Assembly (NCBI RefSeq): GCF_015710975.1
Contig: NZ_CP049783.1
Location: 1,591,501 to 1,655,500 of the forward strand
Source: Paenibacillus polymyxa
Lineage (GTDB): Bacteria; Bacillota; Bacilli; Paenibacillales; Paenibacillaceae
DNA length: 64,000 nt
Direction of reading: 5' to 3'
A program made the position numbers and the translations under genes. The notes beneath the pieces were generated by a model, which saw only the letters and a list, made by a program, of their open reading frames with translations, was not told where the DNA came from and ran no database searches. Positions 44,505-53,534 of the stretch are shown piece by piece. Each line of letters begins with the position of its first letter. Within the stretch, counting starts at the first letter, position 1.

Positions 44505-44921
44505 TTAGTCCAGCTCCTGTCCATCATTTTCAATTTGAATATGACCACAATACAGACATTGATGGGTACAGTTTTGTGTCAAAGCAGGCTGTCCTTCGAT
44601 CTTCACATCACTTTTGCCATTCAGCCACGGCATGGTCAGGACTGGAACACACGGAGCCTTCTTCACGCCATAGATGTCCACCATCTCACTTGCTTGCACA
44701 GCTGGATTTAAGGGACTGGAGCAATTTCCAAAAGACTGAATGTTCACCCCTGGAACGTAATCTCCAATGTTCATTTGTGCTTTGTTTTTTACGTAGACGC
44801 CATGGCTAAAAGGTCTCTTCAAACGGGTAGGTTGTGTGCCATAACTACAACTTAAGATCGCTCCTGCCACGACATAGCTTTTTTTTGCACCCGTTCCCGG
44901 TCTCACCTGGGCTTCTCCCAC
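44505..44921 (-). CDS. PAAR-like DUF4280 protein
   Basis: This 138-residue cytosolic protein has YVVAGAILSCSYGTQPTRLKRP at its start, a central NIGDYVPGVNIQSFGNCSSPLNPAV and several conserved cysteines (CSPL, CVPVLTMPW, CTHQCLYCGHI). That is the DUF4280 pattern, predicted to form a PAAR-like tip for VgrG spikes. The start is GTG 44921, abutting the preceding stop, with AGGAGG 9 nt upstream. It is the last gene of the spike operon. No effector domain is fused, so it may be a plain tip. Confidence 0.85.
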   Translation of the reverse strand: MGEAQVRPGTGAKKSYVVAGAILSCSYGTQPTRLKRPFSHGVYVKNKAQMNIGDYVPGVNIQSFGNCSSPLNPAVQASEMVDIYGVKKAPCVPVLTMPWLNGKSDVKIEGQPALTQNCTHQCLYCGHIQIENDGQELD

Positions 44922-45470
44922 TTACCCCATCCTCCTTAGTGCTTCTATCTCAACTCTTTGCACTCGAATACCTGTAAAAGATCGGCGCAGCAGGCTTTCT
45001 GCCACAGCCAAATGGATATAGATATAAGGTTCGATCAGTCCCTCAATCCGAAAAACAGGAGGCTCTATCTCCCCCTGTCTCAGTAACAAACGCTTCAACG
45101 TACCATTGGGGTACCATTCCGTTTGTGCGGACAAACAGTCCACCATCGGCGGACGAAGCACCCAGTATACCTCCTGTCTGGCCTGCTGGAAATCGGTAAG
45201 GATGGCTGCTTTCCACTTCAGTTCCGGCATATATTTCTCCAATAATACTTTCATCCGATCGGACACCAGTGGTAGGGGAAATTCCAAAAAATCCGGGTAC
45301 ACTGTTCGTGGATCGGTATGTACAGCCAAAAAAAGAGGTTCATCCTGCTGTTGCTGTCCCTCGGCCTCCGTCAGGATATCTTCTACTTGCAAAGGAGACA
45401 GCGCAGCAGGCTCCACCCGATGCTTTACCCGCTCGTCTACCATTAGCCGAAAATATCTCAGTGCAGCCAC
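44922..45470 (-). CDS. Unassigned 182-residue protein of the spike operon
   Basis: This soluble 182-residue protein contains YPDFLEFPLPLVSDRMKVLLEKYMPELKWKAA and a C-terminal YIYIHLAVAESLLRRSFTGIRVQRVE. These segments faintly recall Imm11/DUF1629-type proteins found near type VI cassettes, but I am not sure. The GTG start at 45470 overlaps the pentapeptide gene by 13 nt, with AAAGGGG directly before it (tight spacing). An internal ATG at 45443 lacks a better RBS. It is co-translated with its neighbours, so it belongs to the system as an adaptor, chaperone or immunity-like factor. Confidence 0.7.
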   Translation of the reverse strand: MAALRYFRLMVDERVKHRVEPAALSPLQVEDILTEAEGQQQQDEPLFLAVHTDPRTVYPDFLEFPLPLVSDRMKVLLEKYMPELKWKAAILTDFQQARQEVYWVLRPPMVDCLSAQTEWYPNGTLKRLLLRQGEIEPPVFRIEGLIEPYIYIHLAVAESLLRRSFTGIRVQRVEIEALRRMG

Positions 45471-46696
45471 CCCCTTTTGCTAGCAGCATCCCTGACCTGT
45501 GTAGACCACTCCAAACCAATGGCTCCTCTACGCTGTTCATCGGTAAAAATAACTCCTTGTACGTTTGCACCCGTAAAATCAGCCCCGATCAAGCATGCCT
45601 CTTTAAAGGATGCACCTGTCACATCTGCTCCAACAAAGCAGGCATCCGTGAGGTCTGCCCCGTCCAAGGACGTTTTTTGTAGTAACGCCTCTTGAAATAT
45701 AGCTCCTCGCAACTGCGCATCATGAAAACGGGCCCCCTGCAAGCTCGCCCCTGTGAAATCTACGCTGGCAAAACCCAATGGCTCCCAATCCAATGAAGCA
45801 TCTGATCCATATCCGGCGTTACCCATAACGACATCCAATATGGCCCCTTTCATCGAGCATCCGCTAAAATTGGCCCCATGAAGCAAGCTGTATGTCAAAT
45901 CGATTCCATTTAGCTGACTTTCCTGCCACACCGTTCCTACCAGGATACAACCATGCAGTCGGCTATGCTCCATTCTGATTTGGCGAAAGGCTGTATAACG
46001 GAAATCCAACAGGTTGTAATCCCCATCCGATAGTTCAACTTGGGTCAACGCCTGATAGCTGTACGCATGTTCTTCTTTTTCCTCCAACCACGACTTGATT
46101 TCATTTGCCTCCATGGCTCTGCGATCTTCTCGATATACCGACACACTATGATCCATATATTCCCCCACACGAATCTCGAACGTCTCATCTCGCTCCAGCT
46201 CTTGAAACTCCGGCAAGCACACAGCCTGTTTCATTGCCGAGCGCACCACATTCACAACGAGCGCATGAATGTGTACTGCTGCCTCCAACATTATCTGCTC
46301 CCATTCAAGCTCCGATAGAGAAACTTGCTGCTTCTCTACCTCCCCTCGCAATTGTCGCTGCAAATCAGTCCAGTAAGAATATGCCCAGCTTGTATTCCAT
46401 TCAAAACGGATCGGCTGCGGATCAAGCATCCATAAAGCATCGGAAATCTCTACGAGATAACCAGGCCGTTCTTCCAGCCACATGGTACGTAGCATAGAGT
46501 ACGTGATATAACCGATCCTTCCTTTTCTTCCTTGAAGCTGCTCTTGCCGAATATGCTGGCAATATCTCCGAAACTCTTCGACACAGGCCTGAATCCGTTG
46601 CTCCTGCGTCATCTTGAACTTCAGTGCCCAGTCTCTGCGGATGAGAAACCATGCCTGATTCAAAATGTCCTGCCATTGCGATTCGAACTCATCCAT
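45458..46696 (-). CDS. Pentapeptide-repeat protein of the spike operon
   Basis: This roughly 412-residue protein has a helical N-terminal region of about 220 residues (WQDILNQAWFLIRRDWALKF, DALWMLDPQPIRFEW) and then about 30 pentapeptide repeats of the A(D/N)LXX type (LLHGANFSGCSMKGAIL, TSLDGADLTDACFVGADVTGASF), predicting a right-handed quadrilateral beta-helix. ATG 46696 has GGAG 6 nt upstream. ATG 46708 is possible but has no good RBS. In proteobacterial VgrG cassettes a pentapeptide protein sits beside PAAR genes, as here. Its function there is unclear. Confidence 0.85.
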   Translation of the reverse strand: MDEFESQWQDILNQAWFLIRRDWALKFKMTQEQRIQACVEEFRRYCQHIRQEQLQGRKGRIGYITYSMLRTMWLEERPGYLVEISDALWMLDPQPIRFEWNTSWAYSYWTDLQRQLRGEVEKQQVSLSELEWEQIMLEAAVHIHALVVNVVRSAMKQAVCLPEFQELERDETFEIRVGEYMDHSVSVYREDRRAMEANEIKSWLEEKEEHAYSYQALTQVELSDGDYNLLDFRYTAFRQIRMEHSRLHGCILVGTVWQESQLNGIDLTYSLLHGANFSGCSMKGAILDVVMGNAGYGSDASLDWEPLGFASVDFTGASLQGARFHDAQLRGAIFQEALLQKTSLDGADLTDACFVGADVTGASFKEACLIGADFTGANVQGVIFTDEQRRGAIGLEWSTQVRDAASKRGWLH

Positions 46697-46784
46697 AGGC
46701 TTCTCCATTTGTACTCAACCACCACCTAAAGCTCTCATAAATTCATATCTTCAGGCTGATGCCATTCATCCGCTGCCCTACAGC

Positions 46785-48200
46785 CTAATTCGACTTCACT
46801 TCACTGCCCTTCATATCCGCTGATCCACTCAATTGAATATGACTGCCATTGCAATCCATACGCAGCTCGCTGCCTGCCGACAAATTCATCGTTTTCCCAG
46901 CCGACAAGCTCAGATTACCACCCGCCGAGATACTTACCTGTTTATTGCTCATAATATGAATGCCTTCCTTATCGTCCAGCTTGATAAAAATAGCACCATC
47001 TTTACCCGTCACGACCAGTTCATCCGGTCCCAAACGAATTTCTTTTCCATGAGGTGTGCGCCATATTTTCATCTGCGGATTGGAAAGCTTGTTATGCCCG
47101 CTTCCTCTGTCTGCACGTCGGACTGCACTACCCGCTACCCCATCCTCTTCACGGCTGCCCGGAAAATAGAGTGAAACCGGGTCCCCTTTCTCCGGCATTA
47201 CGTACCAGCCTGTATGTCCCCCGCCGCTATACACCGTCGAATAGTTGAACCAATGCGCCTGATCGACCGCCTGCTTCTCGTCGCAATCCAGATGGATACG
47301 TACCTGATCCTGACGTACGTCTACGACCACCCCGCCTAATGAAGCACCCGCCAGCTTTTCCTGATAATAGCCTTTCTGCCGTAAGCCTTTGTACGAGGCA
47401 AGCACATATTGATGCCGCAACAGCCCTTGCCTCATCTCCGTATAAGCCTCAATGACATACAAACTGTGTCCCTGAAAGGTCAACTGAGCGCCCAGATCCA
47501 GCACCTCGTCTGTCTCCACCTCATAAAAAATAAAGTCATTTTCGTTTACCTTTGCCTGCTCATTTTCCTGAAAGTAGCGGAAAGGCAGCATCTGCTTGCG
47601 TACCGTATAACGGGTATGATCCAGTACTGCCTGTGCAGGGCTGTCTTCAATGCCAAAATAAAATTTAGGACTGTCAAAACGCGCCACAGGCATCAGACTC
47701 GTATGATAGCGGGAAGCCATGCGTCTTAAAAAAGCCCAATCCGTTTCCTGATACTGAATCGCAATCCGTCCGATAGGCTCTCCACCTGTCGCTCCATCAA
47801 TCACATCCAACCCTTCATAATCCTTACCAATCTGCTCCAGCATCTGAGGAATCGTCATTTTGGTATATTGAAAAGAACGGGTGCGTTGCTGAATATCCAT
47901 CCGATAAGTATGGGAAATCGCCTCTACCTCCAGATAGTACACATCCCGCACAACCTTCACTTCGACCGATAGCGCAATCCCGCTGAATAGCGGCTTACTT
48001 TCACCCAATTCATTCTGCTGGCTTACCTCAATCACCGTGTTCTTTTCCGTCGTTTCCACATAGCTGTCTTGCATCTCTTCCGGGATGATCCCTGTAAAAT
48101 AGAGCCGAGTATGCTCGTTGATTTTCTTCGTGAGGGTAAGCTGCTCCAGCTCAACCAGCTCGTAAGGCTGGATTTGGATATTATCGTAGCCCAGACTCAT
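46785..48200 (-). CDS. VgrG/Pvc8-like spike protein (contractile injection system type)
   Basis: This 471-residue protein shows the gp27-like base typical of VgrG and phage late-control D: YVETTEKNTVIEVSQQ, FSGIALSVEVKVVRDVYYLEVEAISHTYRMD and IAIQYQETDWAFLRRMASRYHTSLMP. A gp5-like OB fold follows (GVVVDVRQDQVRIHLDCDEKQA, GGGHTGWYVMPEKGDPVSLYFPG), then a short Ser/Gly beta-helix (NKQVSISAGGNLSLSAGKTMNLSAGSELRM). The start ATG overlaps the upstream DUF1795 stop by 4 nt (ATGA), with GGAG upstream. No fused effector domain is seen. Confidence 0.9.
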   Translation of the reverse strand: MSLGYDNIQIQPYELVELEQLTLTKKINEHTRLYFTGIIPEEMQDSYVETTEKNTVIEVSQQNELGESKPLFSGIALSVEVKVVRDVYYLEVEAISHTYRMDIQQRTRSFQYTKMTIPQMLEQIGKDYEGLDVIDGATGGEPIGRIAIQYQETDWAFLRRMASRYHTSLMPVARFDSPKFYFGIEDSPAQAVLDHTRYTVRKQMLPFRYFQENEQAKVNENDFIFYEVETDEVLDLGAQLTFQGHSLYVIEAYTEMRQGLLRHQYVLASYKGLRQKGYYQEKLAGASLGGVVVDVRQDQVRIHLDCDEKQAVDQAHWFNYSTVYSGGGHTGWYVMPEKGDPVSLYFPGSREEDGVAGSAVRRADRGSGHNKLSNPQMKIWRTPHGKEIRLGPDELVVTGKDGAIFIKLDDKEGIHIMSNKQVSISAGGNLSLSAGKTMNLSAGSELRMDCNGSHIQLSGSADMKGSEVKSN

Positions 48201-48871
48201 AGCGAATCCGCTCCTTTCTCAAGCGTAGTTTGTAAGGGCAATGAAACTGCATGAAGCGACTGAACTGTATTTTCCGCTACAGGTATCCATACCTCCATGT
48301 CCGATTCCGTACAGTTAAACGTCCCCATCATCACCTGTCCTGCATGGGTGAACAGCAGGATTTCGTTGTACAAATTTGTATCCACGCCTGCAGCAACAAA
48401 ACGGATCACCCCAATGGACAGACCGGAATGATTTACGATCACTTGAGTGCCCAACCAGTTACGGATCGGTTGTACAGCTCGCAAAGTGTCCGCCATTTGC
48501 TCCACAAACTCAGAAAGTTCCTCTTCTGCCAAAGTGGACTCTGTCCGATTAAAGGTGATATTCACCGTTCCATCCTCCGAGGTATAAATAACCTCTGGAC
48601 GATATTCCGAAGGATACTTAAATTGGGCCTGCTCCAGTGGCATCAAGCTAAAAGATTTTGGGACGCTAACCTCCATTTGTCCGTCCAAAATCATCCTCCA
48701 TTCCAACGTAATGAACTCATCACCTAACCGCAACGCCTGATTTTTCCCGAAAACGGATTGATCCCGTTCGGATATAACAGTTTGAGAAAGACTCGTATTT
48801 ACGTTATTAGATGCAACATCATAATTAAGCCTATTTTTGAGACTTAAAATATGCTCGTCCATATAGCTCAT
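48197..48871 (-). CDS. DcrB/Eag-like (DUF1795) protein of the spike operon
   Basis: This roughly 224-residue protein has a helical N-terminus (residues 1-45), then a DcrB/DUF1795-type body: MEVSVPKSFSLMPLEQAQFKYPSEYRPEVIYTSEDGTVNITFNRTES, LRAVQPIRNWLG and YNEILLFTHAGQVMMGTFNCTESDMEVW. In type VI systems the Eag proteins with this fold chaperone effectors that carry transmembrane helices. The ORF opens at 49021, but GAAGGGA precedes ATG 48871. It is the first gene of the operon and is translationally coupled to vgrG. Confidence 0.8.
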   Translation of the reverse strand: MSYMDEHILSLKNRLNYDVASNNVNTSLSQTVISERDQSVFGKNQALRLGDEFITLEWRMILDGQMEVSVPKSFSLMPLEQAQFKYPSEYRPEVIYTSEDGTVNITFNRTESTLAEEELSEFVEQMADTLRAVQPIRNWLGTQVIVNHSGLSIGVIRFVAAGVDTNLYNEILLFTHAGQVMMGTFNCTESDMEVWIPVAENTVQSLHAVSLPLQTTLEKGADSL

Positions 48872-51047: not shown

Positions 51048-51123
51048 ATGTTAATTTTATTTAAGACGACACCGCGTTAATGTTATTTAATATAGGTAAC
51101 TATGTAGAACGGACGGTGTTGAT

Positions 51124-51450
51124 ATGCTGCGACCTCATCGAGACAAACAACAATCTTTTGAATTGGTTTCTCTGGAAGAACTGGTACCGCAAGATCATCT
51201 GCTTCGTAAAGTGGAGAAATATAATAGACTTCTCCGTTATTCATGAGAAGGTAGGCCCGCTGTATTGTGCGGACAACGGGCCTCCTGCCATTAATCCTAC
51301 CGTGTTGTTTAAAATGATCTTTCTCGGTTATTTCTATGGCATTCGCTCAGAACGGCAACTCGAGCGTGAAATTCAAACGAACCTAGCCTATCGCTGGTTC
51401 CTGGGGCTGGGCTAACGGATAAAGTTTCAGATCATACGACGATTAGTAAA
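51124..51450 (+). pseudogene. IS1182-family transposase fragment
   Basis: From ATG 51124 the frame reads LRPHRDKQQSFELVSLEELV and PQDHLLRKVEKY, the N-terminus of IS1182-type transposases. A one-base shift near 51221 is needed to continue into IDFSVIHEKVGPLYCADNGP, TVLFKMIFLGYFYGIRSERQ and YRWFLGLG. A second shift near 51412 leads to LTDKVSDHTTISK and a stop. Only about the first 105 residues of a roughly 450-residue protein remain, and the catalytic DDE part is missing. It is a dead remnant. Confidence 0.8.
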
Positions 51451-51464
51451 TGAAGAATAAAAAA

Positions 51465-51534
51465 ATTCAAGTATGTTCTTGACGCAGAAGTTATTCAAGT
51501 AAGTTCTTGTCCAATATTCAAGCAAGTTCTTGTC
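51465..51534 (+). repeat. Three 19-bp direct repeats
   Basis: ATTCAAGTATGTTCTTGAC (51465-51483), ATTCAAGTAAGTTCTTGTC (51493-51511) and ATTCAAGCAAGTTCTTGTC (51516-51534) differ at one to three positions. Each contains a CAAG/CTTG dyad. Spacing is 28 and 23 bp. They lie between the transposase fragment and the broken ABC ATPase, so they could be recombinase, IS-end or regulator binding sites. Confidence 0.75.
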
Positions 51535-51840
51535 GCTACACGAATATGAACGATGCATATAAGCTTGCTGATCATATGGACGTGGAGTTGGGTCGAAAAT
51601 GGCCGGGTTGAGTCGCGGACAGGAGCGCGTGTGCTACTGATTTTATGTCTGGCACGTGAGGTTCTCCACTCATGATCCTGGATGAAGCGTTCGCAGGTAT
51701 TGATGTCCTCTCCAGAGTGGCCGGGATTATTGATTATTTGGAGGGTCGGCGGCAATCTATACTCATTAGCACGCATGATATTCAGGAAGTGGAAGGCTTG
51801 TTTGACTATACTCAATATCCCTTTCAATCTAAAAAACAAC
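51535..51840 (+). pseudogene. Broken ABC-transporter ATPase
   Basis: Pieces in different frames join into the end of an ABC ATPase: NMNDAYKLADHMDVELGRK, then the signature LSRGQERV, then LLILCLAREV, then the Walker B stretch MILDEAFAGIDVLSR and the H-loop region ILISTHDIQEVEGLFDY. At least three frameshifts (near 51600, 51635 and 51670) separate them, and the Walker A half is absent. The family appears to be a multidrug or bacitracin-type (BcrA-like) ATPase. No permease is nearby. Confidence 0.65.
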
Positions 51841-51915
51841 GGTACCAACGAAAGCATCATTCAGCGCGAGGTCGTCGATACCGTTTAATCTTGATTTAAT
51901 ACTACTTAGAAAATT

Positions 51916-52113
51916 TTAATTAGAAAAAATACTTACAGTTTCGAAATATTGAAATCTGCACTTTTCTTCCTGATTTTCTTGGGAAAGTTCAATAAACCAA
52001 TCTTCAAGCTTATCTTCTTCTTTAAAAATTCTCGATCTCTAAAAGTTCAATTCTAGTTCTGGAAATGAATACATCCAACCCAGTTCTGGATCATTTTCAT
52101 CATAAAGTGATTT
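51916..52113 (-). pseudogene. Minus-strand coding remnant with in-frame amber stop
   Basis: The frame reads HEKSLYDENDPELGWMYSFP, ELELNF, a TAG at 52039-52041, and then IFKEEDKLEDWFIELSQENQ, EEKCRFQYFETVSIFSN and TAA. The composition is protein-like on both sides of the stop. The 5' part is cut by the recombinase fragment. The family is not recognised; small acidic proteins like this include immunity proteins, but that is a guess. Confidence 0.4.
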
Positions 52114-53534
52114 CTCATGATGCGAAGCAATTTCGATGAAGTTCCACAGTTCCAGCAAATGATTGTCGATAGTGAAAAAGGATTATTTGATGTGCTCATT
52201 GTTCATAAGTTGGATCGTTTCAGCCGGGACAAATACGACAGTGCTAAATACAAACGCAAATTGAAACTAAATGGCACTCAACTGTACAGCGTCACCGAAA
52301 ACCTAGACGGCTCCCCCGAAAGTGTCATTCTGGAATCGTTGCTGGAGGGTATGGCTGAATACTATTCTAAAAACTTGGCCCGTGAGGTCATGAAAGGAAT
52401 GAAAGAAACCGCATACCAATGCAAGCATACAGGCGGTCTGCCTCCTATTGGTTACGCAGTAGACCCTGTAACACGGAAATACATCATTAATGAAGAGGAA
52501 TGTGGCATCGTCGAAACTGTTTTTTCGATGTTCCTCGCTGGTCATGGGTACAACCAGATCATTAGGGAACTAACAGAGCAAGGCTCACATCACGTTATGG
52601 GAAACCGATCAGCAAGGGAACCTTAGGTACCATTCTTCGCAATGGAAAATACACAGGCACCTACATTTTCAACCTCACCGACAGCAAGGATGCGGCTGGT
52701 AAACGAAACGGCAATCGGCATAAAAATAGTGAAGATGTGATTCGTGTCGAAGGTGGTGTGCCACAGCTTGTAACCAAGGAAAATTTTCAAAAGGCACAGG
52801 AAAAGATGAATCAAAATAAGCGCCAACCTGGCGCTTACAAGGCAAAAGAAATGTACCTGCTTAGCGGACTCATTGTTTGCGGGGAATGTTTGAAAAACGT
52901 AGGTATTCAGTATGCCATGATGGGCAATACCAAATACAGCGGTAGAAGCAAACTGAAATATGTCACCTACCGTTGCGGTAACCGTGATCGGACAAAGGCA
53001 TGTAAAAACCCTGAGCTGCGCCGCGAATACATTGAAGCCTACGTGCTGGCTCAGCTTCAGGAGAAGATTTTTAACGATCAGGCTATCCCTGTTCTGGCTA
53101 AACAGCTTAATGAGTACCAGAATTCCAAGCAAACGAGCGTCAAAGCCGACCAACATCGCCTGACCAAGAGTCTGGAAGGTGTGAAGCGCCAGATTGATAA
53201 CATTGTAAATGCGGTGGCTGGCGGTCTGAACAATCCTACCATTCTTGAAAAGTCGTCCTCACTGGAACAGCAAAAGATTGAGCTAGAAACGAAACTGCTT
53301 GAGGCTCAGCAGGTAAAAGAAAAAGCAGCCATCACAGAGGATGCTCTGCGACAACTGCTTTCTGGCTTTCAGAACCACATCACCAGCCGGAACCTTCCTG
53401 AGATCAAGAAGTTTATCGGCAGCTATGTAGAAAAGGTGATTGTCTACAAAGAACACGTAGAAGTCATCTTTAAGCTACAAATTGTGGATTTGATCGATGG
53501 AGGCGAGGGGAGTCGAACCCCTGTCCGAAGATAA
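52105..53534 (+). pseudogene. Large serine recombinase, truncated and frameshifted, ending inside ssrA
   Basis: The first open part (from about 52117) gives the catalytic-domain end LIVHKLDRFSRDKYDSAKYK and the ESLLEGMAEYYSKNLAREV helix. A frameshift near 52585-52600 moves to KPISKGTLGTILRNGKYTGT, the recombinase and zinc-ribbon domains (LLSGLIVCGECLKN, YRCGNRDRTKACKNPELRR) and the coiled coil. The N-terminal 50-60 residues with the catalytic Ser are missing. The last residues GGEGSRTPVRR are the antisense reading of the ssrA 3' end, showing that the gene abuts its attachment site. The protein is almost certainly inactive. Confidence 0.85.

Follow-up and report, generated by a model that had tools for sequence, protein, structure and literature searches.

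A five-gene VgrG cassette of Paenibacillus polymyxa as a probable spike module of a contractile, type VI-like injection system with machine genes elsewhere in the genome

The stretch analysed here is 64,000 nucleotides of a Paenibacillus polymyxa genome (contig NZ_CP049783.1; the whole stretch is referred to as the window), and the element in question is a cassette of five genes, all on the minus strand and running from window position 48871 to 44505, that encode in order a DcrB-like protein, a VgrG-like spike, a pentapeptide-repeat protein, a protein of 182 aa and a DUF4280 PAAR-like protein (Table 1). All five genes are open and closely packed, as a first-pass annotation had described: the DcrB-like and VgrG genes overlap by 4 nt, the pentapeptide and 182-aa genes by 13 nt, and the gap between the 182-aa and DUF4280 genes is zero. 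The gap between the VgrG and pentapeptide genes, for which 88 nt had been given, has that size only when counted from the second in-frame ATG of the pentapeptide gene; from the first it is 76 nt. A scan of GTDB genome contigs, using the best 80 of 541 relatives, yielded 77 related loci from Paenibacillus, Brevibacillus, Aneurinibacillus, Lysinibacillus, Sporosarcina, Solibacillus and others including Acetivibrio, Pseudobacteroides and Defluviitalea. The comparison of gene order across relatives that had been proposed as a check finds all five genes together in 52 of these 77 loci, and the grouping is therefore not attributable to chance.

Table 1. Genes of the window cassette (window coordinates) and of the machine locus of the same genome (C1:3382722-3401460).
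Feature	Location	Strand	Length	Remarks
DcrB/DUF1795-like protein	48197..48871	-	224 aa	from ATG at 48871; mechanical open reading frame starts at TTG 49021
VgrG-like spike	46785..48200	-	471 aa	without C-terminal extension
Pentapeptide-repeat protein	45458..46708	-	416 aa	Pfam pentapeptide 5.4e-26
Imm11-related 182-aa protein	44922..45470	-	182 aa	cassette member kept across relatives
DUF4280 PAAR-like spike tip	44505..44921	-	138 aa	GTG start; Pfam 1.8e-36
Ser/Thr kinase	machine locus		303 aa	Pkinase 7.4e-35
VWA protein	machine locus	opposite strand		
Sheath-fold protein	machine locus		722 aa	predicted fold
Hcp-like protein	machine locus		141 aa	weak TssD match
J-protein	machine locus		149 aa	DnaJ 2.4e-26, with HPD
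Two FHA-type proteins	machine locus			first with two transmembrane-like segments
Two PP2C-type proteins	machine locus			one transmembrane-like segment each
m6, m7, m8	machine locus			conserved proteins; order m6, m7, m5, RDD protein, m8
m5, Hsp70-like ATPase	C1:3395721-3398366		883 aa	motifs AIDFGTSN, DCGGGT, TGQSC
RDD membrane protein	machine locus, between m5 and m8			
DUF2167 membrane protein	machine locus, after m8			

The VgrG assignment is firm at the family level on the evidence of profiles. The window protein taken as a single sequence gives only partial Pfam matches (Phage_GPD at 1.5e-6, Phage_base_V at 4.2e-5, and DUF2345), and a profile of 27 family members matches solved VgrG and Pvc8 spikes (8gra at 4e-17, 7aef at 5.5e-15), which disposes of the concern, raised with the annotation, that the 471-aa protein might lie outside the VgrG fold. 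Its closest named relative, 99% identical, is from Paenibacillus polymyxa, and in PHROGs it matches phrog_52, a tail protein (3.4e-6). The identity of the DUF4280 protein is likewise firm; it has six cysteines, and its IglG-like match (1.1e-7) scores 31.9 bits against an IglG cut-off of 200 bits. The combination of a VgrG spike and a PAAR-type tip that marks contractile injection systems is thus present. The call of DcrB/DUF1795 is made through the family profile and not from the window protein alone, which gives no such match in a profile search and none in PHROGs; the family profile matches solved DcrB (13cz, 1.4e-4) and DUF1795 (6e8a, 2.9e-4) structures, and Pfam DcrB is matched by 3 of the 26 members of the family. 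The highest-scoring match of that profile, 7q58 (1e-6), extends over 23 positions and was discounted as fortuitous. This part of the earlier description as "DcrB/Eag-like DUF1795" therefore holds, and the Eag-like part is an analogy by which the protein could possibly be a chaperone of the spike or of an effector. The pentapeptide protein has an N-terminal domain of ~200 aa that is found alone elsewhere (L014:4433-5038, 201 aa), and it comes after a VgrG in 70 places in the 77 loci. Genes were clustered over 82 stretches, these being the 77 loci and five stretches of the own genome, and the 182-aa family is present in 68 of them; a distant member (in L138) matches Imm11 at 3.1e-9, the window copy matches it at 0.13, and the best PDB match of the family profile is MXAN_0049 at 0.041. 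We suggest that the 182-aa protein may serve as an adaptor or chaperone.

The first-pass annotation had raised the possibility that the cassette is an orphan spike for a contractile particle encoded elsewhere, and had proposed a search of the genome for sheath and tube genes. Clustering reveals a conserved block, present in up to 34 of the 82 stretches, of two FHA and two PP2C genes and the genes for m6 (~428 aa), m7 (~231 aa), the Hsp70-like m5 (~882 aa) and m8 (~260 aa); many of the 77 loci are cut by contig ends, so that these counts are minima there. The run from m5 to m8 is complete in 32 of the 77 loci, and a DcrB-like gene directly follows m8 in 28 places. The block is absent from the 24 kb clustered around the window cassette. 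In Paenibacillus sp. NAIST15-1 (L022), however, the orthologous cassette lies immediately downstream of m6-m7-m5-m8, its proteins being 90% (VgrG), 93% (DUF4280), 81% (182-aa), 77% (pentapeptide) and 74% (DcrB-like) identical to those of the window, which supports the orphan-spike proposal. Four loci (L054, L059, L062 and L087) additionally encode a protein of 720–735 aa and two proteins of 100–143 aa, and a single 20-kb stretch of another genome (L139 in G053) reads as the sheath-fold and Hcp-like genes, FHA, PP2C, m6, m7, m5 and m8, followed by the whole cassette (DcrB-like, VgrG, pentapeptide N-domain, 182-aa and DUF4280 genes). The corresponding machine locus of the own genome is listed in Table 1, its FHA proteins and smaller PP2C protein being named by likeness to scanned relatives. 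None of the 15 proteins examined there has an internal stop, and six of them have transmembrane-like segments.

The 722-aa protein of this locus has a contractile-sheath fold as predicted by AlphaFold, and it is by this predicted fold that a sheath is recognized; the model matches single-chain sheaths over residues 3–705, with entries from extracellular contractile injection systems (eCIS) and phages as the best structural matches, and a BFVD fold search returns an uncharacterised Myoviridae protein (5.7e-4) and a tail sheath (5.5e-3). By sequence, the protein matches nothing in NCBIfam, and in Pfam only TssG at 0.36. The family comprises 2,515 homologues at E <= 1e-3 among 7,995 candidates scored, with a mean column identity of 73% over 48 relatives that are mostly close; the 120 homologues listed are, where named, a "transcriptional regulator", hypothetical or uncharacterised, and none has a Pfam domain. 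Matches in Pfam for three relatives, PDB entry 2d1l at 0.0054 (98-row profile) and two NS1 matches for the L087 member look like chance and were rejected. The 141-aa protein is, judging from its sequence, likely to be an Hcp-type tube protein: Pfam TssD is matched by all four sequences scanned, the protein itself and three relatives, with values (4.5e-4 to 2.4e-3) that do not reach the curated cut-off, and a profile of 10 sequences matches solved Hcp1 (6bdc) at 1.5e-3, ahead of the next chain (0.55); with 8 sequences the value for Hcp1 is 0.029. The three motifs of m5 we take for those of an Hsp70/actin ATPase; m5 itself matches only HSP70 in Pfam, weakly (0.006), and its profile finds nothing in the PDB at 0.01, whereas a distant homologue in L138 matches the SrfB family (PF07520) at 4.1e-7.

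Co-occurrence across 198 genomes of the order ties the cassette to this locus. One and the same set of 34 genomes, with no addition from the other 164, carries strong VgrG matches (E below 1e-100; 59 genomes have a match of any strength), m5 (E = 0; 34 of 36) and the sheath (34 of 34); 25 genomes with weak VgrG matches and two with weaker m5 matches (G002 and G057) were excluded from this count, and all of these lack the sheath. Among genomes of the genus itself, 12 carry the full trio and 19 carry no member of it. DUF4280 is found in all 34 VgrG genomes, and in 43 others. The sheath and m5 genes are 6.7–8.4 kb apart in each of the 34 genomes, and a VgrG lies within 5.2 kb of m5 in 32; the exceptions are G129, whose ~350 contigs do not permit linkage to be judged, and the present genome, in which no VgrG is seen in the machine locus, the nearest being 68 kb off and the window cassette 1.74 Mb off. 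A sample of the phylum comprising 398 genomes has the sheath in 13, of which four belong to the family of the present genome; two of the 13 (L137 and L138) have a compact cluster. That in L138 encodes a DUF4280 protein (1.9e-6) that narrowly misses the cut-off for an AHH nuclease match, the 182-aa family, the sheath (26% identical), an Hcp-like protein, VgrG (Phage_base_V 2.8e-10), m7, m5 and m8; L137 has in part the same order, with matches to the sheath, Hcp-like, 182-aa, m7-like and Hsp70-like proteins. Position and length suggest m6 in both, where tblastn gives no match. DcrB and pentapeptide queries match nothing in L137 or L138, and no FHA or PP2C genes were read there; these four components may therefore be accessories, and the remainder the core. 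We also note that the sheath-less genome G002 encodes two giant Hsp70-like proteins (L134, G002:C2:30001-50000) of 1508 and 1568 aa, whose similarity to m5 is at 1e-115 and 1e-124 and which point to a related system, and that in one family (f6) many genomes have a single DUF4280 gene (~1e-37) together with a PF04984 sheath (~1e-19), a pair that may represent a separate eCIS.

We conclude that the cassette is probably an exchangeable spike module of a contractile injection system of the Bacillota resembling the type VI secretion system (T6SS), with its machine genes elsewhere in the genome; the system is known from its genes and a predicted fold, and we put the probability of this interpretation at about 0.87. 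The orphan-spike proposal is supported by the sheath-fold protein, the weakly Hcp-like protein and the conserved block found elsewhere in the genome, and by the distribution of 34/34 against 0/164. Several observations weigh on the other side. The sheath model comes from one AlphaFold run, and a run with a shallow alignment gave a predicted local distance difference test (pLDDT) score of 46; no sequence profile in Pfam, NCBIfam or PDB ties the 722-aa family to a known sheath; the likeness to Hcp is weak and by sequence alone; m6, m7 and m8 have only chance-level matches in Pfam and NCBIfam, as do m6 and m8 in PDB profile searches; the TssJLM membrane complex was not recognized among the locus proteins scanned, no genome-wide search having been made; and prophage-type PF04984 sheaths are somewhat enriched in VgrG genomes (31 of 34, versus 120 of 164 others, p 0.026).

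Comparison with known systems suggests a machine distinct from each of them. A VgrG with PAAR-type tip, the weakly Hcp/TssD-like protein, the sheath fold and C-terminal toxins on VgrGs are shared with T6SSs of types i–iii, and the set of FHA, PP2C and kinase proteins has its T6SS counterpart. However, there is one single-chain sheath in place of separate TssB and TssC, genes for Hsp70-like and J-proteins lie in the locus, and the host is Gram-positive. TssEFGK were not recognized among the locus proteins scanned, and no ClpV (TIGR03345) exceeds its cut-off in the genome, the best match being an 823-aa frame at 419 bits versus 885 that we take to be ClpC-like; a ClpV control passes this cut-off in 1 of 14 genomes. 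With no ClpV above the cut-off, the Hsp70-like protein could conceivably take on this task. The T6SS of the Francisella pathogenicity island is likewise non-canonical and has a DUF4280 PAAR-like tip, IglG (PMC5349215), but the window protein falls far under the IglG cut-off. From eCIS such as Afp, PVC and the Streptomyces coelicolor contractile injection system the machine differs by its several VgrGs with differing extensions and by the Hsp70-like and J-protein genes. The alternative offered by the annotation, a distinct Firmicute system, agrees with these differences from canonical T6SS, and with differences from the PF04984 prophage sheath and from the YukC-type type VII secretion system (T7SS).

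That the machine is instead an extracellular particle of eCIS type, released by lysis and not anchored in the cell, seems to us rather unlikely. The single-chain sheath with its eCIS and phage structural matches and the lack of a recognizable TssJLM in the scan of locus proteins fit such a particle, yet the same scan of the machine locus revealed neither an AAA+ ATPase nor a tape measure or tail fibre (of the eCIS-specific models, PF06841 was searched across this genome and had no match, an uninformative result as the control was also silent), and six of the 15 locus proteins have transmembrane-like segments. Several VgrGs per genome with differing extensions, together with the FHA/PP2C/kinase set, fit use and regulation of the T6SS type. 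It is far less probable that the system is degenerate, the block being retained for another role and the window cassette a relic: the cassette is indeed detached from its machine here and one sister VgrG-toxin gene is split, but the open genes at both places and the conservation of the sheath family speak against decay.

Loading of the spike onto a prophage tail of the same genome has a slighter chance again. The only PF04984 match of the genome (C1:600191-600676) has neighbours that read as tail genes, presumably of a PBSX-like prophage, and the enrichment given above would favour this partner; however, PF04984 is common in genomes that lack VgrG, and three VgrG genomes (G053, G084 and G086) that encode the 722-aa sheath are without any PF04984 match. 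As a candidate partner, PF04984, present in 151 of 198 genomes and only slightly enriched, was rejected; it misses the true candidate. Finally, we regard it as extremely improbable that VgrG and DUF4280 are substrates of a type VIIb secretion system; one VgrG of the genome does have a lipase gene and a weakly matching WXG100 gene nearby, but YukC (EssB family) occurs in none of the 34 VgrG genomes and in 2 of 198 overall, with a B. subtilis control that does match, a result that applies to YukC-type T7SS and on which this carrier was rejected.

The contractile machine that we favor might operate as follows. Rings of the Hcp-like protein would form a tube inside the sheath, capped by a VgrG trimer with the DUF4280 tip; the DcrB-like, 182-aa and pentapeptide proteins would help to load or stabilise the spike, whose physical loading onto the machine we infer, and m6–m8 would form a baseplate. 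Firing would be governed by the kinase, PP2C and FHA proteins, by analogy with those T6SSs in which a phosphorylation pathway has this role, and the Hsp70-like/J pair would help in assembly or recycling of the sheath. Contraction would then drive the spike, and toxins fused to sister VgrGs, into neighboring cells; the window VgrG carries no toxin and would therefore be a structural or co-assembled spike. A fuller version is tentative, and we lean against it as a whole: a cell-anchored T6SS-like weapon of monoderms in which the Hsp70-like ATPase and J-protein replace ClpV and recycle a single-chain sheath under kinase/PP2C/FHA control, and interchangeable VgrG-toxin spikes loaded with Imm11-like and DcrB-like chaperones attack bacteria across the Gram-positive wall.

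The genome holds three places with DUF4280 and eight with VgrG matches. Counted from the start codon, two VgrGs with long C-terminal extensions measure 948 aa (L014) and 1060 aa (L015), and a third lies in a 984-aa open frame that runs in frame from L016 into L015, has a match to YwqJ-like deaminase in its final 131 residues (5.3e-7), and is followed by a 175-aa gene. Two paralogues with extensions, at C1:3466837-3468219 and C1:3477566-3478948, are ~10 kb apart and have unlike C-termini, one of them the YwqJ-like deaminase; paired VgrG paralogues with differing C-termini are a pattern typical of toxin-tip exchange. The window cassette is thus the one without a toxin among several VgrG-linked loci that resemble polymorphic-toxin loci, in which genes neighboring the VgrG-toxins may have immunity roles. 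A further VgrG with extension (L013:8014-11125, C1:2635014-2638125) is split into two reading frames of 240 and 762 aa, appears broken, and is followed by a 137-aa gene. After a cassette in L014 come a gene for a glucosaminidase-like protein (1.2e-4, under the cut-off) and lipoprotein-like genes; at L014:16979-18886 a VgrG has as neighbors a gene with a lipase domain and a weak WXG100 gene (6.6e-5, below the cut-off), and, YukC not having been found in the genome, a T7SS of another type may exist.

We found no sign that the cluster is part of a prophage tail operon, a possibility that the annotation had named as fatal to its proposal. Seven flanking reading frames were scanned and include DoxX, glyoxalase, DUF896, transposase and recombinase genes and no tail gene, and VgrG has no match among 50,697 phage records. 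VgrG-like stretches do occur in 30 IMG/VR contigs, which counts against placing the cassette outside phage tails; in the five strongest (27–36% identity) the other 11 queries are unmatched in the DNA fetched. Upstream of the cassette (window 51080-53534) there are a transposase fragment (DUF772) and parts of a serine recombinase split over two reading frames, one Resolvase/Recombinase and the other the zinc ribbon. One IMG/VR contig (L095:9983-12823) encodes a 947-aa VgrG with extension near a frame that reads as a serine recombinase, an arrangement suggesting that provirus borders are among the places where such cassettes can lie.

In the parts of the literature examined, spike genes of Gram-positive bacteria had been noted in 2016 (PMC5349215) and 2021 (PMC8651086), both with speculation on an unknown phage-like system, and a table of 2012 (PMC3482391) places firmicutes under T6SS. 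The PAAR_H2/Phage_GPD pairs of Firmicutes in PMC8651086 are probably the same genes as our cassette, and the text examined there names no sheath, tube or machine locus; nor did we find a paper that names them in the open-licence literature, preprints being outside this scope. Such a machine has thus been suspected in print, and what we propose here is the identification of its sheath family and of a fixed block of partner genes. If correct, this would mean that monoderms, too, possess cell-anchored contractile weapons, and it would point to an Hsp70/J pair as an alternative to ClpV; the question can now be reduced to gene deletions in ordinary soil bacteria.

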